Positions 18,759 through 44,016 of a stretch of 53,894 nt of DNA are shown in pieces. Location: IMG/VR virus record IMGVR_UViG_3300048582_000124, positions 1-53,894 of that record; one strand, 5' to 3'. The stretch comes from a virus. A model generated the notes under the pieces. The model ran no database searches, had not been told where the DNA came from, and saw only the letters and a program-made list of their open reading frames with translations. Numbering within the stretch: position 1 is the first letter of the stretch; each line of letters opens with the position of its first letter. Both the position numbers and the translations under genes were made by a program.

Positions 18759-19922
18759 CTAATTATCCTTTTCTATTCTTTCTATTTTTATGTGTGCAGC
18801 AGTCGGACCCCAGCTGGTGTATACGTTCTCGGCTCCAGTTGCAAGTATAACCTCATCGATAATATTGTCAACGGGGGTGTCAGTTACTGAACTGCTTTGA
18901 TCGCAATGTGTAATCATAGCATTTACAGTGTACGACAGGTCTTCTAGCTTCGACAGGTCTTCTTCGATCGCATCAAACATTTTGTCGTAGTTTAACGGAG
19001 CGAATCTTAACTCACCTTGCCAGTCATTTTTTACATTAGTATCGTCTACTATGTTAACTGGTGTAACAATCTCATTGGGTAAAGGTCCTGCGCCGTGTCG
19101 GCTTAGGTACGCCCGCGTAATGTAAAATATATCGATATCGGCTTTCATGTTACTGATTAATTGTACAACATTTGTTAACCCCGTGCTAGAACGAGTAACA
19201 TATGGAAAATCCATACTATCTTGATCTAAAAATAATCCCTGAGCACCCTCGAACACAAGGTGTTCGAACAACTCAAACGCATCGGTATCTTTACAAGGTT
19301 TTACGTTATTATAAAATTCCTTTGCATCTCTAAGAAAACGTTCATCTACTCTTTCTAGTAGAATCGGGTTATTTTCGATTCCTAATTCCACTAAGCGCAT
19401 TGGAAAATATTCTGTTTTAATGTTTTCTAACTTTTCTGCTAATGTATCTGCATCTTTTAAATCGCTCACCCGAAGTGGGAAGCCGCGTTCGGCTCGCTCG
19501 ATAGTTTCGCCGAACCCGACTCCACAGCTACCGTGGCGTTCACCGGCTCGCGCTTTTTCAATCGTTTGATTTATATACACATCGTACGGTGTAGTTACGA
19601 GACATTCCTTGTCCACGTACACGTTAGGCAAAGTGCCACATTTCTTATAGAGATCCATTGCTTCGTGCCAGAACAGTATCGGATTTACCACGAAGAATCT
19701 CGACAAGATAGTAGGGGCACCATTAAAAGTGCCCGATCCGAAGTGGTGAAATACATGACGAATTCCATCTTTACGTTGAACTGTGTGCCCTGCTTGAGCA
19801 CCACTATTAAATCGTACAACGGCTGTCTCCTTCCGGTCTTGGGTTAGCCAGTCGGTAGTAAGCCCTTTGCCTTCGTCGCCGTATCCTGCGCCGATTACAA
19901 TTTCAATAGATTTATTCGTCAC
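18759..19922 (-). CDS. purA: Adenylosuccinate synthetase (PurA family)
   Basis: Joins IMP and aspartate using GTP. 387 aa, shorter than the roughly 430 of bacteria. P-loop GYGDEGKG (about 13-20) keeps the catalytic Asp16, and AGHTV keeps the catalytic His46; FEGAQGLFLD and YVTRSSTG match the IMP-binding QFEGAQG...FVTSSNT region. The related phage enzyme PurZ (2-aminoadenine pathway) has, as I recall, lost the P-loop Asp; its presence here favours true PurA chemistry. GTG start with AAGGT upstream. GuaC in this window would supply IMP; the next enzyme (PurB) is not seen here and would be the host's. Confidence 0.88.
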   Translation of the reverse strand: MTNKSIEIVIGAGYGDEGKGLTTDWLTQDRKETAVVRFNSGAQAGHTVQRKDGIRHVFHHFGSGTFNGAPTILSRFFVVNPILFWHEAMDLYKKCGTLPNVYVDKECLVTTPYDVYINQTIEKARAGERHGSCGVGFGETIERAERGFPLRVSDLKDADTLAEKLENIKTEYFPMRLVELGIENNPILLERVDERFLRDAKEFYNNVKPCKDTDAFELFEHLVFEGAQGLFLDQDSMDFPYVTRSSTGLTNVVQLISNMKADIDIFYITRAYLSRHGAGPLPNEIVTPVNIVDDTNVKNDWQGELRFAPLNYDKMFDAIEEDLSKLEDLSYTVNAMITHCDQSSSVTDTPVDNIIDEVILATGAENVYTSWGPTAAHIKIERIEKDN

Positions 19923-39366: not shown

Positions 39367-39374
39367 TATTTATC
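39367..39374 (-). promoter_or_regulatory. Putative late promoter (GATAAATA)
   Basis: Minus-strand motif overlapping the clpS stop, 87 bases upstream of the 95-aa gene. Confidence 0.4.
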
Positions 39375-39688
39375 TATTCTTCTTCACAAGTTGCACGAAG
39401 CGGAAATTGATTTAGTCTTGCCATGTTTACTGCCTCGAGCGCCTTTTCTTCGGCAATCTCCTTTGTGTAAACACCCGCGATACCCCTACCGTTGGTATGA
39501 ATAAGAAATGTAATCTCATGCGCTTGCTCTTCGGTTTTATGGAAAATACGTCGCAATACTGCGATTACAAAATCAAAGGTAGTACGATCGTCGTTGTGCA
39601 AAATAACTTTATACAAATTAGGTGCGTTAACGCGGACATCTTCTTCTACTGCTGTTTCGCCACGAATCGACGGGTTAATAACTGCCAC
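39374..39688 (-). CDS. clpS: ClpS, N-degron adaptor of ClpA
   Basis: 104 aa from GTG 39688 (E. coli ClpS 106). This start has AGGAG 8 bases upstream; the ATG at 39730 lies upstream of the predicted RNA start. Core motifs: LYKVILHNDD (Asn32, Asp33, Asp34), Thr36, His64 in LIHTNG and GVYTKEIAEEKA match the residues that hold the substrate alpha-amino group and side chain. The gate residue equal to E. coli Met40 is Phe38. ClpS delivers proteins with Leu, Phe, Tyr or Trp N-termini to ClpA. Disordered N-terminal extension (about 1-20) as needed for delivery. It has its own promoter. Confidence 0.95.
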   Translation of the reverse strand: MAVINPSIRGETAVEEDVRVNAPNLYKVILHNDDRTTFDFVIAVLRRIFHKTEEQAHEITFLIHTNGRGIAGVYTKEIAEEKALEAVNMARLNQFPLRATCEEE

Positions 39689-39712
39689 TTCTTTTCTCCT
39701 CTTAAAATGAAA

Positions 39713-39749
39713 AGCCCTTTGTCCGTGCATTGTACACTAACAAAGGGCT
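39713..39749 (-). terminator. Intrinsic terminator of hsp20 overlapping the clpS promoter
   Basis: 10-bp inverted repeat AGCCCTTTGT / ACAAAGGGCT with a 17-base loop, followed by TTTTC on the minus strand. The loop contains the clpS -10 box, so only transcripts coming from hsp20 can form the hairpin. Confidence 0.7.
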
Positions 39750-39771: not shown

Positions 39772-40338
39772 TTATTTGATAGTAATCAATTTCGGTTTTT
39801 CTTCTTCGGGGGTATTCTGAATAAGAGATACAGTGAGAATGCCGTCCTCGAGTGTTGCATCAGCAACTTCTACATGATCTGCAAGAGTCCACGATAGCTT
39901 AAACGAACGAGTTGAAATGCCTTTATGATGGTACTTAGGTGTTTGAACTGCTACTGTCGGCTCATCTTTTTCAGTCGGTTCGACTGCTGCAACATCAGAT
40001 GCCGACACTGTGTTACCAGCAATTGACTTTTGCTTCTTAACTGTGCGAATCAAAGTCGGTAGTGGTTCATCTAATGCAGTTTCGGTCGTTTTCTTACCTA
40101 CGATAGTAAGTTTGTTCTGATGCCGTTCTATCATAATTTCGTCACGCTTGAATCCTGCAACAGCAATTTCAATTGCGATAGAATTATCAGCATGTGAAAT
40201 AACATTATGCGGGGGATAATTAGTAGTTGCTACGCTGAAGCGATTTTCAATATCATGGAAGATCGGGTCGAAACCTAATGCCACACGGTTAAGACGTTCA
40301 AAAAGGAAAGATAGATCCGTTGGGTTGAAATTTGTCAT
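39772..40338 (-). CDS. Hsp20/IbpA-type small heat-shock protein
   Basis: 188 aa from ATG 40338, with AAGGAG 6 bases upstream (the longer frame to 40398 runs through the leader). Alpha-crystallin domain: IAIEIAVAGFKRDEIMIERHQNKLTIVGKK (about 54-83) and FKLSWTLADHVEVADATLEDGILTVSLI (about 146-173) match IbpA. Between these halves is an extra segment of about 40 residues (about 85-130, Thr/Ala/Val/Glu-rich), so it is longer than E. coli IbpA (137 aa). The C-terminal LITIK resembles the IxI anchor. Holds unfolding proteins for refolding; phage relatives exist. The leader carries a ROSE-like element. Confidence 0.92.
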   Translation of the reverse strand: MTNFNPTDLSFLFERLNRVALGFDPIFHDIENRFSVATTNYPPHNVISHADNSIAIEIAVAGFKRDEIMIERHQNKLTIVGKKTTETALDEPLPTLIRTVKKQKSIAGNTVSASDVAAVEPTEKDEPTVAVQTPKYHHKGISTRSFKLSWTLADHVEVADATLEDGILTVSLIQNTPEEEKPKLITIK

Positions 40339-40340
40339 AT

Positions 40341-40372
40341 GAAACTCCTTATAATAAGCAAGTCTTTTGCTT
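40341..40372 (-). promoter_or_regulatory. Putative ROSE-like RNA thermometer masking the hsp20 ribosome-binding site
   Basis: In the RNA, UUGCU (40361-40357) faces AGGA of the Shine-Dalgarno (40349-40346) across a 7-base loop, with the G of UUGCU bulged, and the stem continues as AGAC/GUUU: about nine pairs in total. U(U/C)GCU opposite the Shine-Dalgarno is the signature of ROSE thermometers, which precede small heat-shock genes. An alternative hairpin, AAGCAA (40372-40367) with UUGCUU (40361-40356), would free the site. Confidence 0.6.
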
Positions 40373-40405
40373 GTAAAATAGCCTGCACCATGCAGCACTA
40401 TTATG

Positions 40406-40430
40406 CGAAAATAAACGCTTGTTATTTTCG
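40406..40430 (-). repeat. Leader hairpin upstream of the ROSE-like element
   Basis: Perfect 9-bp inverted repeat CGAAAATAA / TTATTTTCG with a 7-base loop, in the predicted hsp20 leader. ROSE leaders usually contain one or more such 5' hairpins. Confidence 0.6.
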
Positions 40431-40435
40431 TATTT

Positions 40436-40443
40436 TATTTATC
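40436..40443 (-). promoter_or_regulatory. Putative late promoter of hsp20 (GATAAATA)
   Basis: Minus-strand motif 98 bases before the hsp20 ATG; it would give a leader of about 90 bases containing the two hairpins. Confidence 0.45.
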
Positions 40444-40464
40444 TTTTGTCAAATTACAATCAAT

Positions 40465-40493
40465 AAAAATCCGGTATCAAATACCGGATTTTT
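40465..40493. terminator. Bidirectional intrinsic terminator between the 182-aa exported protein and hsp20
   Basis: Perfect 13-bp stem AAAAATCCGGTAT / ATACCGGATTTTT with a CAA loop and A/T ends on both strands. Confidence 0.9.
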
Positions 40494-40510
40494 AGTTGTT
40501 CTGTGTGTTA

Positions 40511-41059
40511 TTAGATTAGTGTAAAGATACCAATTAAGATACCAATCGGTAACACGTCAGTTACTGCTCCACCGACAACCTTAGTTGGGTGGGCGTAATC
40601 AGCAGCCTCGGACGATCTGTCTAGGTATTTCTGAAATAAGCCGAGCTCACGATTAGCAGACTTATAAAGTGCTGCTTGACCTTCACTCCCGGCAAGTGTC
40701 TTTTGAGCTAAACCAACATATCTTTCATACTGCTCCATGTGAATTGCTGCTTGACGCAGATTCATGCACTGTGCAGAATCAGAACCCATCGAAATACCGG
40801 CGCTTTGACCTTGACCGGCAGCACCGTATTGGCAGCTCTGGACAAAGACGCTAGCAGACGATGCTACCGGAATATCCGGGGCTTGTACAGTACTTACGTT
40901 ACCGCTTTGGTCGATGTAAGTCTGTGAACCAGATTGAGCCGCAGCGCCGGCTTGAGAAGCAGCACCTGAGTTTGCGGTCGACGTAGTATTGTCGAAAGCA
41001 GCAAAAACAGAACCACTCATTGCAACCATTGCGCCAATCATTAAAATTTTCTTAAGCAT
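40511..41059 (-). CDS. Exported protein with signal peptide (182 aa)
   Basis: Signal peptide MLKKILMIGAMVAMSGSVFA with an AxA-type cut (about 20/21). The mature part begins with a Ser/Ala/Gly/Gln-rich stretch, has two Cys (about 77 and 97), a helical middle (about 100-155) and a C-terminal hydrophobic segment (VLPIGILIGIFTLI), so it may sit in the periplasm attached to a membrane. Function unknown. AGGAGG upstream. Second gene after a consensus promoter. Confidence 0.8.
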   Translation of the reverse strand: MLKKILMIGAMVAMSGSVFAAFDNTTSTANSGAASQAGAAAQSGSQTYIDQSGNVSTVQAPDIPVASSASVFVQSCQYGAAGQGQSAGISMGSDSAQCMNLRQAAIHMEQYERYVGLAQKTLAGSEGQAALYKSANRELGLFQKYLDRSSEAADYAHPTKVVGGAVTDVLPIGILIGIFTLI

Positions 41060-41131: not shown

Positions 41132-41518
41132 TTAAGGCTGGAAACCTAGACCAATAGTACCGAAGCCAGCTTGTGCGCCGGAACCGGACACACCAGTAGC
41201 GCCAAAACCACTAGCTGCGCCAGCAAGGCCAAGAGCAGCAGAAGTGCTGTTACCGGTCGAACCAGTGCCGGAAGTTTGGCTTACACGAGTGCCAGTCGGG
41301 GTAATGCGGGCAGCAGCAGTACCACCGGAAACAGTGCCTGCATTAGCTGTAGTACCGGCAACACCAGCGAGAGCAGCACCCGAACCACCCTGAACAGAAG
41401 CACCGCTGATAGATTCGGAACCTACCTGAGCAAGACCACCGTAAAGGTTAAGGGAAGCTGCCTGAGCAGTACCAGCAATCATAAGAGCTGCAACAGCAGC
41501 AACCATATATTTCATCAT
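41132..41518 (-). CDS. Exported Gly/Ala/Ser-rich protein (128 aa)
   Basis: Signal peptide MMKYMVAAVAALMIAGTAQA (cut about 20/21). The mature protein is almost wholly Gly, Ala, Ser and Thr with short SGxGAxxG units, no Cys and very few charged residues. It could be a low-complexity periplasmic or surface-exposed polymer. Function unknown. AGGAG upstream and a perfect sigma70 promoter; paired with the exported protein downstream. Confidence 0.82.
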   Translation of the reverse strand: MMKYMVAAVAALMIAGTAQAASLNLYGGLAQVGSESISGASVQGGSGAALAGVAGTTANAGTVSGGTAAARITPTGTRVSQTSGTGSTGNSTSAALGLAGAASGFGATGVSGSGAQAGFGTIGLGFQP

Positions 41519-41624: not shown

Positions 41625-41866
41625 TAGCTTTTTTTACTATCTTCAACTCTTTCTAGCGATTTCAGCCAACGCTTTCTCGCCATTTTCTTTCTTACCTTTT
41701 TCTTTTCACTTTCGGATTCGAAGTGCATTCTGTCTCGCACTTCTTTCAAAATGCCCGACTCTTGTACTTTATTAGTGAAAAGGCGCAGTGCCTTATTAAA
41801 ATCACGATCTACAACTACTGACAATCCTGTCACAGTTACTGGAAATCTATTATCGTGTCTACTCAT
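41621..41866 (-). CDS. rpsU: Ribosomal protein bS21 homologue
   Basis: 81 aa (E. coli S21 71). After a 15-residue N-terminal extension, VVVDRDFNKALRLFTNKVQESGILKEVRDRMHFES matches the S21 core ([25 protein letters not shown]), followed by a Lys/Arg-rich helix with KKKVRKKMARKRWLKSL. bS21 sits beside the anti-Shine-Dalgarno end of 16S rRNA and influences initiation. The gene begins inside the end of clpX (8-base overlap), so it is translated with clpX. S21 genes are known from some large phages. Confidence 0.9.
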   Translation of the reverse strand: MSRHDNRFPVTVTGLSVVVDRDFNKALRLFTNKVQESGILKEVRDRMHFESESEKKKVRKKMARKRWLKSLERVEDSKKSY

Positions 41867-43085
41867 CTTTGTTTACCTGTTTCTTCCTTTTCTTAAAGAT
41901 ATGTGTGGTGTTACCGTTACCGTCTACAACAACTTTTACCACACCTTGCTTAGATAAGTCAGGAAGGTTAAATTGTGTAGAATGTAATGTCTTTTCTAGC
42001 AGTGACCTAAGACCACGTGCTCCTGTTTTTCTATCTAAACTAATCCTCGCTATGGAAGACATATATTTATCATCTAATTCTAAGTCCACCCCATCTAAAG
42101 CGAACATATACTTAAATTGGGTTATCAAACTATTCTTAGGTTCACTCAGGATTTTAACAAGCATCTCTTCTGTAAGCTCACTTAAAACAGCTACAACTGG
42201 AAATCTACCTATAAATTCAGGAATAATACCAAATTCAATAATATCTTCCGGTGTTACTTCGGCTAATAATCCTTTGTCTTTATTCTTATCTTGTATTTCC
42301 GCATGTATTCCGATTGATGTAGTGGTACAACGTTTTTTTACTACATCTTCGAGCCCTATGAATGCCCCACTTGCAACAAACAGCACATTAGTAGTGTCGA
42401 ATTCGATAGTTTCACCCATTAATGCGCGCTTTTGTATCTTAACTATAGTACCTTCGACTAATTTTAGCAATGCTTGCTGTACACCTTCTCCTGAAACATC
42501 TCTGCTTACACTATTAGATTTACTCTTTCTAGCAATTTTATCAATTTCATCGATGAACACGATTCCTCGTTGTGCTTTTTCGACATCGCCATTAGCTTTT
42601 TCCAGCAATTGCTCTACTAAAGACTCGACGTCTTCACCGACATAACCCGCTTCAGTCAGAGAAGTTGCATCGGCAATAACACAAGGTATATCGAACAGTT
42701 TAGCAATTGTTTTAACTATTAGTGTTTTTCCGGAACCGGATGGTCCGAGCAACAGTAGATTAGATTTTTCTAATTCGATATCAGACGTATTATTAATACG
42801 TTTGTAATGATTATAAACTGCAATACTAATAGCAGACTTAGCAGGATCTTGCCCTATGACGTATTTGTCTAAATGCGCCTTAATTTCTGACGGAGTGTAG
42901 ATTTTATCTACATGATTTTCTATTTTTTCTTCGATAGGACGTACATCGTGTATTACCGAATGACTAAAATCAACACATTCATTACAAATGTATATAATTT
43001 TACCCTCGAACACAGGACCTGCCACCATTTGTCTTACTTCTTTTCTGTTCTTTTCACAGAAAGAACACACAACTTCTGCTGCCAT
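41859..43085 (-). CDS. clpX: ClpX unfoldase
   Basis: 408 aa from ATG 43085, which has GGAGG upstream (the GTG at 43100 is the longer frame). N-terminal zinc-binding domain with VCSFCEKN (Cys7, Cys10) and YICNEC (Cys34, Cys37). AAA+ core: Walker A GPSGSGKT (114-121), Walker B FIDEID (177-182), the pore loop AGYVGEDV, sensor GARGLRSLLE. The ClpP-docking tripeptide is IGI (258-260) instead of the usual IGF. Unfolds tagged proteins for ClpP. Overlaps rpsU; downstream of the coiled-coil membrane gene. Confidence 0.95.
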   Translation of the reverse strand: MAAEVVCSFCEKNRKEVRQMVAGPVFEGKIIYICNECVDFSHSVIHDVRPIEEKIENHVDKIYTPSEIKAHLDKYVIGQDPAKSAISIAVYNHYKRINNTSDIELEKSNLLLLGPSGSGKTLIVKTIAKLFDIPCVIADATSLTEAGYVGEDVESLVEQLLEKANGDVEKAQRGIVFIDEIDKIARKSKSNSVSRDVSGEGVQQALLKLVEGTIVKIQKRALMGETIEFDTTNVLFVASGAFIGLEDVVKKRCTTTSIGIHAEIQDKNKDKGLLAEVTPEDIIEFGIIPEFIGRFPVVAVLSELTEEMLVKILSEPKNSLITQFKYMFALDGVDLELDDKYMSSIARISLDRKTGARGLRSLLEKTLHSTQFNLPDLSKQGVVKVVVDGNGNTTHIFKKRKKQVNKDE

Positions 43086-43086
43086 G

Positions 43087-44016
43087 TTATCTACCTCCAC
43101 GACTTAGCCACCCTCTCCTTGTTGTATCTATAGTTGTTGCATCGTCGGGCGGCGACGGTGCTGTGTCTTCTGTAGTATATTTATTTATACTACTTTCGTC
43201 AAGAACCGGTTCTTTTTCTGGTAAAGTAATTGGTTCTAATGTATTTTCTACAGGCAAAGCATCGTTTGCTCGTTTATGTGTCATTAACGACTGATTAGCA
43301 GCAATAAGCAGCAATATCGCAAGCGGATCTAGCACCACGACTAACAATATTATTACAAATCTTACTGCTGATTCTAAATCTGCCTTTTCATTTCCATAGA
43401 ATAGTTCTGCAACATATCGTATAGGACCAACTTCAGCCTCGAGTTTCCTAACATCGACCATTAACTCGAACTTTTTATCTTCAAGTTGATCAATTTGTGT
43501 TAAAGATTCAGATATAATTGCCTGTAGTTGTGTTCTTTCTGCCTGTTGTTCTTTTCTTATTGCTAATGCGCCACCGGCTCCGGAAATCTTACTATATTCC
43601 ATAAGTGTAGTTACTGCATTGTCTAATTGTAACACTATTCGATTAGCACTGTCGACTTCTTTTTGCAGTTTTTGTATTTGTTGATCAATTCTTTCTACTT
43701 TTGCTACGGTATCACCTGCTGGTGCCGTTTGATCTAAGTGGGCTTTCGATAAATATCCGAAGACGCCGATGCTAGTAATGCACATTAACACAATCACTGC
43801 GGTGGTTAAATAAGTCTTAAGAAGAATACCTGTACTCTTCCAATTCCTGTACAACCAACTCGCAGTGACTAACTTAGCTACTTCGAGCGTTGCGCCCATT
43901 ATAAGAATAGATAAAATGGCAGTCGGAAATATAGCCATAAGTCCGACTATAGAAAACCATGCGGCTACTCCTGCAACCATTAGAGCAGTAATTAATGTTA
44001 GTATAATAAATAGCAT
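43087..44016 (-). CDS. Coiled-coil membrane protein (309 aa)
   Basis: Three membrane helices near the N-terminus (about 2-22, 25-48, 68-90), a long coiled coil (about 100-200) and a fourth helix (about 215-243); the C-terminal 65 residues are a Pro/Thr/Glu-rich tail ending WLSRGGR. Similar coil-containing membrane proteins are common in T4-like marine phages; function unknown. No Shine-Dalgarno: GATAAATA ends 4 bases before the ATG. Confidence 0.8.
   Translation of the reverse strand: MLFIILTLITALMVAGVAAWFSIVGLMAIFPTAILSILIMGATLEVAKLVTASWLYRNWKSTGILLKTYLTTAVIVLMCITSIGVFGYLSKAHLDQTAPAGDTVAKVERIDQQIQKLQKEVDSANRIVLQLDNAVTTLMEYSKISGAGGALAIRKEQQAERTQLQAIISESLTQIDQLEDKKFELMVDVRKLEAEVGPIRYVAELFYGNEKADLESAVRFVIILLVVVLDPLAILLLIAANQSLMTHKRANDALPVENTLEPITLPEKEPVLDESSINKYTTEDTAPSPPDDATTIDTTRRGWLSRGGR

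Follow-up and report, generated by a model that had tools for sequence, protein, structure and literature searches.

ROSE elements are usually described from rhizobia and gammaproteobacteria. The short ROSE of Pseudomonas ibpA (RF02523, ROSE_3; PMC3669281) comprises two hairpins before a small heat-shock gene, and heat has been proven to melt its hairpin II and not its hairpin I (PMC3669281). Hairpin I contains a bulged G and belongs to the GAUGCC..GGGUC type, and hairpin II places U[U/C]GCU against the Shine-Dalgarno (SD) sequence, also with a bulged G. The phage leaders described here resemble it in this two-hairpin layout and in preceding a small heat-shock gene. In contrast to ROSE_3 of Pseudomonas, they stay under the Rfam gathering score, are AU-rich, stand behind a phage-type promoter rather than a sigma-32 promoter, often have a start-codon clamp (GUCAU/AUGAC), and also precede dnaK and phasin-like genes. 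The leader on which this analysis is centred further differs in that it lacks the clamp, has a longer SD stem, and bears one more hairpin on its 5′ side. The enterobacterial ibpA ROSE (RF01832, ROSE_2) shares the U[U/C]GCU/SD core, the bulged G, and the small heat-shock gene, but it has more hairpins, and neither this leader nor those of the other phages match its model. The rhizobial ROSE (RF00435) and the ABC-transporter ROSE-like or ROSE-G elements (PMC11342760, PMC12857270) have the ROSE motif against the SD in common with the phage leaders, but their architectures and genes are different, and RF00435 has no match in the DNA analysed.

Temperature-responsive leaders have been reported from phages, namely lambda cIII, the SPbeta blyA fourU, and the Caudoviricetes sigma-70 fourU (PMC11182007, PMC10586365), but none is of the ROSE type and none lies on a chaperone gene. 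The hsp20 gene is described as a cyanophage core gene (PMC7674155). In the open-licence literature searched, neither phage ROSE elements nor any control of cyanophage hsp20 by temperature were found, and a ROSE-type element before the hsp20 of well-known cyanophages appears to be unreported so far. To our knowledge, no ROSE thermometer has been reported from a phage before. Should the element act as its Pseudomonas counterpart does, water temperature would directly govern how much chaperone is made in infected bacteria of the sea and of fresh water, and ROSE thermometers would be extended to cyanophages and SAR11.

The leader analysed belongs to the hsp20 gene of the virus record IMGVR_UViG_3300048582_000124, whose 53,894 bases are the window. 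By sequence comparison, the element in this leader belongs, as a divergent member, to a family that precedes nearly all phage hsp20 genes examined. With good confidence, the leader can be taken for a ROSE-type RNA switch on translation that is very likely a thermometer, the temperature response being expected by analogy with the ROSE family.

The hsp20 leader and its hairpins

The phage genes of the window include a head maturation protease and a clamp loader, and no DNA similarity between the window and known phages was found. The hsp20 gene (39772..40338, minus strand) encodes 188 amino acids with an alpha-crystallin domain. Its product matches Pfam PF00011 HSP20 (E 4.2e-14) and PHROG 432 Hsp20 (E 5.4e-36), and its nearest relative in the IMG/VR collection has 39% identity. 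One distant relative of the window phage was found via DNA ligase, and there too the element precedes hsp20. The start codon is ATG 40338-40336 on the minus strand. The mechanical ORF has the in-frame GTG 40398 as its first codon, and translation from there would turn the element into coding sequence that pairs by chance. Such a start is extremely improbable, since a consensus SD, AAGGAG (40345..40350, minus strand), stands 6 nt before ATG 40338 instead, the aligned ATG is the start in relatives, and the covariance-model match ends at ATG 40338. The leader from 40402 onward reads AAUAGUGCUGCAUGGUGCAGGCUAUUUUACAAGCAAAAGACUUGCUUAUUAUAAGGAGUUUCAUAUG; its sequence and coordinates had been given correctly in the first-pass annotation.

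Hairpin II is the ROSE hairpin, AGACUU[G]CUUA-UUA-UAAGGAGUUU (40342..40365, minus strand). Constrained folds contain the pairing proposed earlier, with UUGCU opposite the SD, a bulged G (G40359), and a stem extended by AGAC/GUUU. The outer pairs are A40365-U40342, G40364-U40343, A40363-U40344, C40362-G40345, U40361-A40346, and U40360-G40347. After the bulged G, the inner pairs C40358-G40348, U40357-A40349, U40356-A40350, and A40355-U40351 close a UUA loop. The anti-SD motif UUGCU, which conforms to the ROSE motif U[U/C]GCU, occupies 40357..40361 (minus strand). For an RNA that stops at the AUG, hairpin II is the minimum free energy (MFE) fold in ViennaRNA.

Hairpin I, AAUAGU[G]CUGCA-UGG-UGCAGGCUAUU (40377..40402, minus strand), has 11 pairs and a bulged G40396, and folds at 15-50 C. 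It was missed in the first-pass annotation and is located between the SD hairpin and a 9-bp hairpin, CGAAAATAA/TTATTTTCG (40406..40430, minus strand; 40430-40422 with 40414-40406). This 9-bp hairpin, recognised earlier as lying 5′ of the ROSE hairpin, is present in both sequence and folding, but it falls outside the family consensus, and hairpin I is the conserved one. In ROSE thermometers the SD hairpin is the 3′-most of two to four, and it is likewise the 3′-most in the window leader, which consists of hairpins I and II and the extra 5′ hairpin. In a few relatives (L029, L035, L060), too, the leader forms a third hairpin, at another place.

Two covariance models were built with the window left out. 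R1 comes from ten other hsp20 leaders, a seed reduced to this size because the first MAFFT leader alignments were out of structural register, and R2 comes from 54 other elements, including dnaK and phasin-like leaders. Searched over both strands without filters, both rank the hsp20 leader first in the window, R1 with 15.5 bits and E 0.075 against 11.9 for the next match, and R2 with 31.6 bits and E 1.3e-5 against 14.0 bits for the runner-up, the E-values of both models being rough because calibration was shortened. The two matches finish two codons inside hsp20. The R2 match aligns hairpins I and II and is a significant held-out match. In its alignment hairpin I and the ROSE core are intact in the window, whereas the start-codon clamp is missing, its helix 2 being broken; in place of the clamp, the window lengthens the SD stem by AGAC/GUUU. 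Among the SD-bearing ORF leaders of the window, the hsp20 leader has the sole correctly spaced U[U/C]GCU core. The Rfam ROSE search that had been suggested for this leader does match the site with ROSE_3, but the score of 17.2 bits (E 0.24 across the 4227 Rfam families) falls short of the gathering score of 43; no Rfam family matches the window at its gathering threshold. Opposite-strand Rfam matches to frnS, rseX, AgrB, and others were attributed to the AU-rich terminator region and rejected.

Folding predictions depend on where the RNA ends. With an RNA ending at the AUG, the value predicted by ViennaRNA for unpaired SD is 0.28 at 15 C and reaches 0.77 at 45 C; with coding sequence it is 0.01 at 15 C and reaches 0.2 at 45 C. 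When at least 12 nt of coding sequence are present, the MFE fold at 15-50 C contains an alternative SD lock, GGAGUUU with AAAUUUC of codons 3-4 (40327..40348, minus strand). At 25 C with coding sequence included, ViennaRNA favours other folds by about 4 kcal/mol, and the SD is closed there too. The leaders of HIMB114 and Melnitz likewise fold differently in ViennaRNA. This is read as a limit of the energy model, because nearest-neighbour energies also misfold the enteric ibpA ROSE control, which scores 100 bits with Rfam ROSE_2.

In longer RNAs the MFE fold also contains a competing hairpin, AAGCAA/UUGCUU (40356..40372, minus strand; 40372-40367 with 40361-40356), specific to the window sequence. 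The first-pass annotation had proposed that this hairpin releases the SD and makes the element bistable. The pairing can form and is the MFE in RNAs extending beyond the start codon, but it is absent from the relatives compared; the majority of them have GUCAU at the AAGCAA position, complementary to the start AUGAC. Release of the SD by this hairpin would be confined to RNAs ending near the AUG; once at least 12 nt of coding sequence are included, it fails because GGAGUUU pairs with AAAUUUC, and the SD stays locked. Bistability of the window leader is possible but unsupported, and a switch of this kind is improbable.

The element in other phages and in bacteria

A comparison set of 80 IMG/VR loci with related hsp20 genes was collected. 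The pairing of UUGCU with AGGA, whose loss in relatives had been named earlier as grounds for rejecting the element, is conserved: U[U/C]GCU stands 8-12 nt before AGGA in all 47 distinct readable IMG/VR hsp20 leaders, a count that leaves out two loci truncated before the leader and L057, whose start was not fixable. The related loci and the window together contain 169 distinct SD-bearing ORF leaders; the core is present in 47, comprising 40 of hsp20, six of dnaK, and one other. Whole-record searches with R1 gave a match in 47 of 49 records. The R1 matches in L092 and L094 appear to be chance. Rfam ROSE_3 matches several hsp20 starts in these loci with E 1e-7 to 1e-5 and is the best Rfam family at several phage leaders. 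Phage members other than the window score 24.9-34.6 bits with it, and the Pseudomonas ibpA positive control scores 69.2 bits.

IMG/VR was also scanned for the core alone (TTGCTTA-N0-4-AAGGAGA-N3-8-ATG, hairpin I not required). At least 120 loci were found, and the matches listed include 96 before hsp20, four before dnaK, and one before a phasin-like gene, although these loci are mutually related and the counts are not independent trials. A scrambled core gave no hsp20 and no dnaK among the 120 matches listed. R2 finds the full element, including hairpin I, in 69 of the 80 core-scan loci listed.

In cultured phages, R2 matches the hsp20 start in 16 of 18 (E < 0.01), including S-PM2, P-SSM2, P-SSM4, S-SM2, S-RIM2, S-CRM01, Mosig, HTVC115P, Melnitz, Atu_ph07, Phosso, and PA5oct, and the core is visible by eye in the remaining two, HTVC008M and S-T4. 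The annotated start of S-T4 hsp20 (L236, about 780-867) is too far downstream, and the likely one is the ATG after UCUCGCUUUCAGGAGAG. The core occurs in cyanophages and in phages of Pelagibacter, Methylophilales, Agrobacterium, Sinorhizobium, and Pseudomonas, with the host pairs Atu_ph07 and Agrobacterium C58, Phosso and Sinorhizobium, and S-PM2 and Synechococcus WH7803. Bacterial hsp20 leaders bear the same element, for example that of SAR11 HIMB114. In SAR11 chromosomes (L272 1397-1462, L273, L275, L276, L281) the two-hairpin element is found before hsp20. Two records marked UNVERIFIED, OQ572409 (L222, Pseudomonas phage Y7) and MG065691 (L232, Campylobacter phage A11a), contain a bacterial ibpA with ROSE. 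They serve as positive controls, OQ572409 scoring 69 bits with ROSE_3 and MG065691, whose ibpA is enteric, 100 bits with ROSE_2, and the genes are probably contamination by host or other bacterial DNA.

Comparison of the leaders of related phages, which the first-pass annotation had recommended, gives strong covariation, with double changes above the shuffled and slid controls. The 62 matches aligned to R1 have 118 double-changed cells against 22.6 +- 3.7 shuffled and at most 20 slid, and 77 more diverse matches have 321 against 110.8 +- 10.5 shuffled and at most 90 slid; these alignments were fitted to the model and hence lean towards it. Most of the covariation is in hairpin I, where about 9-10 of the 11 family pairs have double changes. 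The third helix, GUCAU/AUGAC over the start codon, has them in four of its five pairs. This clamp is missing from part of the phage leader family as well as from the window, and phasin-like leaders pair GAAC/GUUC or AACAU/AUGUU instead. The SD stem is almost invariant because the SD itself must stay constant. The covariation concerns pairs shared by the family, no close relative of the window hsp20 having been found in the collection. Taken together, the held-out models, the UUGCU/AGGA conservation, the covariation, and the likeness to Pseudomonas ROSE support the initial proposal that this phage hsp20 is preceded by a ROSE-like element which sequesters the SD.

The bulged G of the anti-SD strand is G in all 77 aligned sequences, many of which were picked by a G-containing pattern, the cultured phages and bacteria not. 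It bears on whether the leader could be a temperature-independent brake, in which weak occlusion of the SD keeps Hsp20 synthesis constantly low and the hairpins otherwise serve mRNA stability. The SD is indeed mostly closed at 15-45 C in some predicted folds. A constant brake is nevertheless unlikely, because what is strictly kept is the bulged G with U[U/C]GCU, the destabilising signature of ROSE, and not perfect pairing. Both features are also kept in the cultured phages and bacteria, which were not selected by motif, and the element is nearly restricted to chaperone-type genes.

The element was observed before phage dnaK in L084 2038-2107 (minus strand), L018 961-1015, L064 893-950, L071 939-1004, and L106 721-781, and at several dnaK loci hsp20 lies just downstream with a separate copy. 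Phasin-like genes are preceded by it in L081 1238-1304, L082 1597-1660, L089 187-251, L090 168-239, L091 178-236, L093 795-853 (minus strand), and L100 2797-2860 (minus strand). The phasin-like phage proteins are small (76-94 aa), and two of them score just under the Pfam PF09361 cut-off. Element-like sequences stand before groES in L088 (158-212) and in L151 (9654-9714, minus strand), where the two are adjacent. In L088 the sequence lies about 110 nt upstream of groES and opens a 34-codon frame ending at the groES SD, either a decayed copy or a leader peptide. Element-like leaders of 21-25 bits also occur before rubredoxin-like genes (L117 2231-2286, L153 4045-4099).

Promoters and control of translation

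A late-promoter-like box, GATAAATA (T4-type, TATAAATA-like; 40436..40443, minus strand), is a possible start of the window leader. A consensus scan also gave a sigma-70-like promoter candidate, TTGACA-17-GAAAAT (40424..40452, minus strand; TTGACA at 40452-40447), with 10 of 12 matches, which is not by itself evidence of function. In the relatives, a TAAATA-type box precedes hairpin I by 4-9 nt in 37 of 44 leaders and by exactly 4 nt in 31, against a background of 11 of 307 other ORFs. From this position, the transcript would begin at the foot of hairpin I. Several box-less leaders (L016, L018, L064, L071, L076) have dnaK just upstream, with a separate element for each gene. The late-type motif noted earlier at the start of the window leader does contain a TAAATA box (40441-40436), but it stands 33 nt from hairpin I where 4 is usual, so its assignment as a late box is weaker in the window.

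For some T4 late genes, early read-through transcripts are known to lock the SD, whereas late transcripts start inside the element and have a free SD. The closeness of late-type boxes to the element would fit such an early/late switch in these phages. In the 37 of 44 leaders, however, the boxes are 5′ of the entire element, so late transcripts would include both arms, which makes the T4-like scheme very unlikely.

Sigma-32-like promoters were found in none of 47 phage leaders, while some bacterial hsp20 leaders have them (HIMB114, L272; L273). It appears that the phage or its ancestors retained the ROSE leader known from bacterial hsp20 genes and exchanged the sigma-32 promoter for a phage-type one, so that heat control would rest on the RNA alone. 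In the proposed thermometer, the weak hairpin II would occlude the SD at low temperature and exclude ribosomes, and in the window phage the alternative pairing between the SD and the start of the coding sequence would add to this lock. On warming, hairpin II would melt while hairpin I stays folded, and Hsp20 would be made.

The element may also be a protein-binding operator through which Hsp20 represses its own translation until it is titrated by aggregates, in the manner of E. coli IbpA, with melting secondary. Arg93 is the residue by which IbpA of E. coli, Cedecea, and Vibrio binds the ROSE leader of its own gene (PMC10474464). The window Hsp20 has the aligned Arg (GISTRSF), as do, with one exception, the phage Hsp20 proteins compared, and a shared operator would suit the occurrence of the element ahead of dnaK and of phasin-like genes as well. 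On the other hand, this Arg is common across alpha-crystallin domains in general, and the auxiliary R97/K98 are not retained in the window Hsp20. An operator is also compatible with melting, as E. coli has both. Control mainly through an operator, argued here by analogy with IbpA, is a secondary and somewhat doubtful reading, and the thermometer is preferred.

Tentatively, large phages might run a heat-shock regulon by RNA, with ROSE-type gating of hsp20, dnaK, and phasin-like genes and with phage Hsp20 as a possible feedback repressor. The element of such a small regulon would stand behind phage-type promoters, and it lies once before groES. If this were true, chaperone output during infection would follow temperature and aggregate load without host sigma-32.

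Gene neighbourhood in the window

A bidirectional terminator-like hairpin (40464..40494), found by scan with 14 pairs on each strand, separates hsp20 from the upstream gene. Two small low-complexity ORFs lie upstream of hsp20 (40511-41059 and 41132-41518); their N-termini are signal-peptide-like, and they have no Pfam match. A Clp-type ATPase (189-2408; PHROG 4871), ClpS (39374-39730), and ClpX (41859-43100) are encoded around hsp20, and together with it they form an uncommon proteostasis set. The window also contains an adenylosuccinate synthetase-like gene (18759-19922). It belongs to PHROG 1211 (PurZ type) and may be a sign of modified (2-aminoadenine) DNA.
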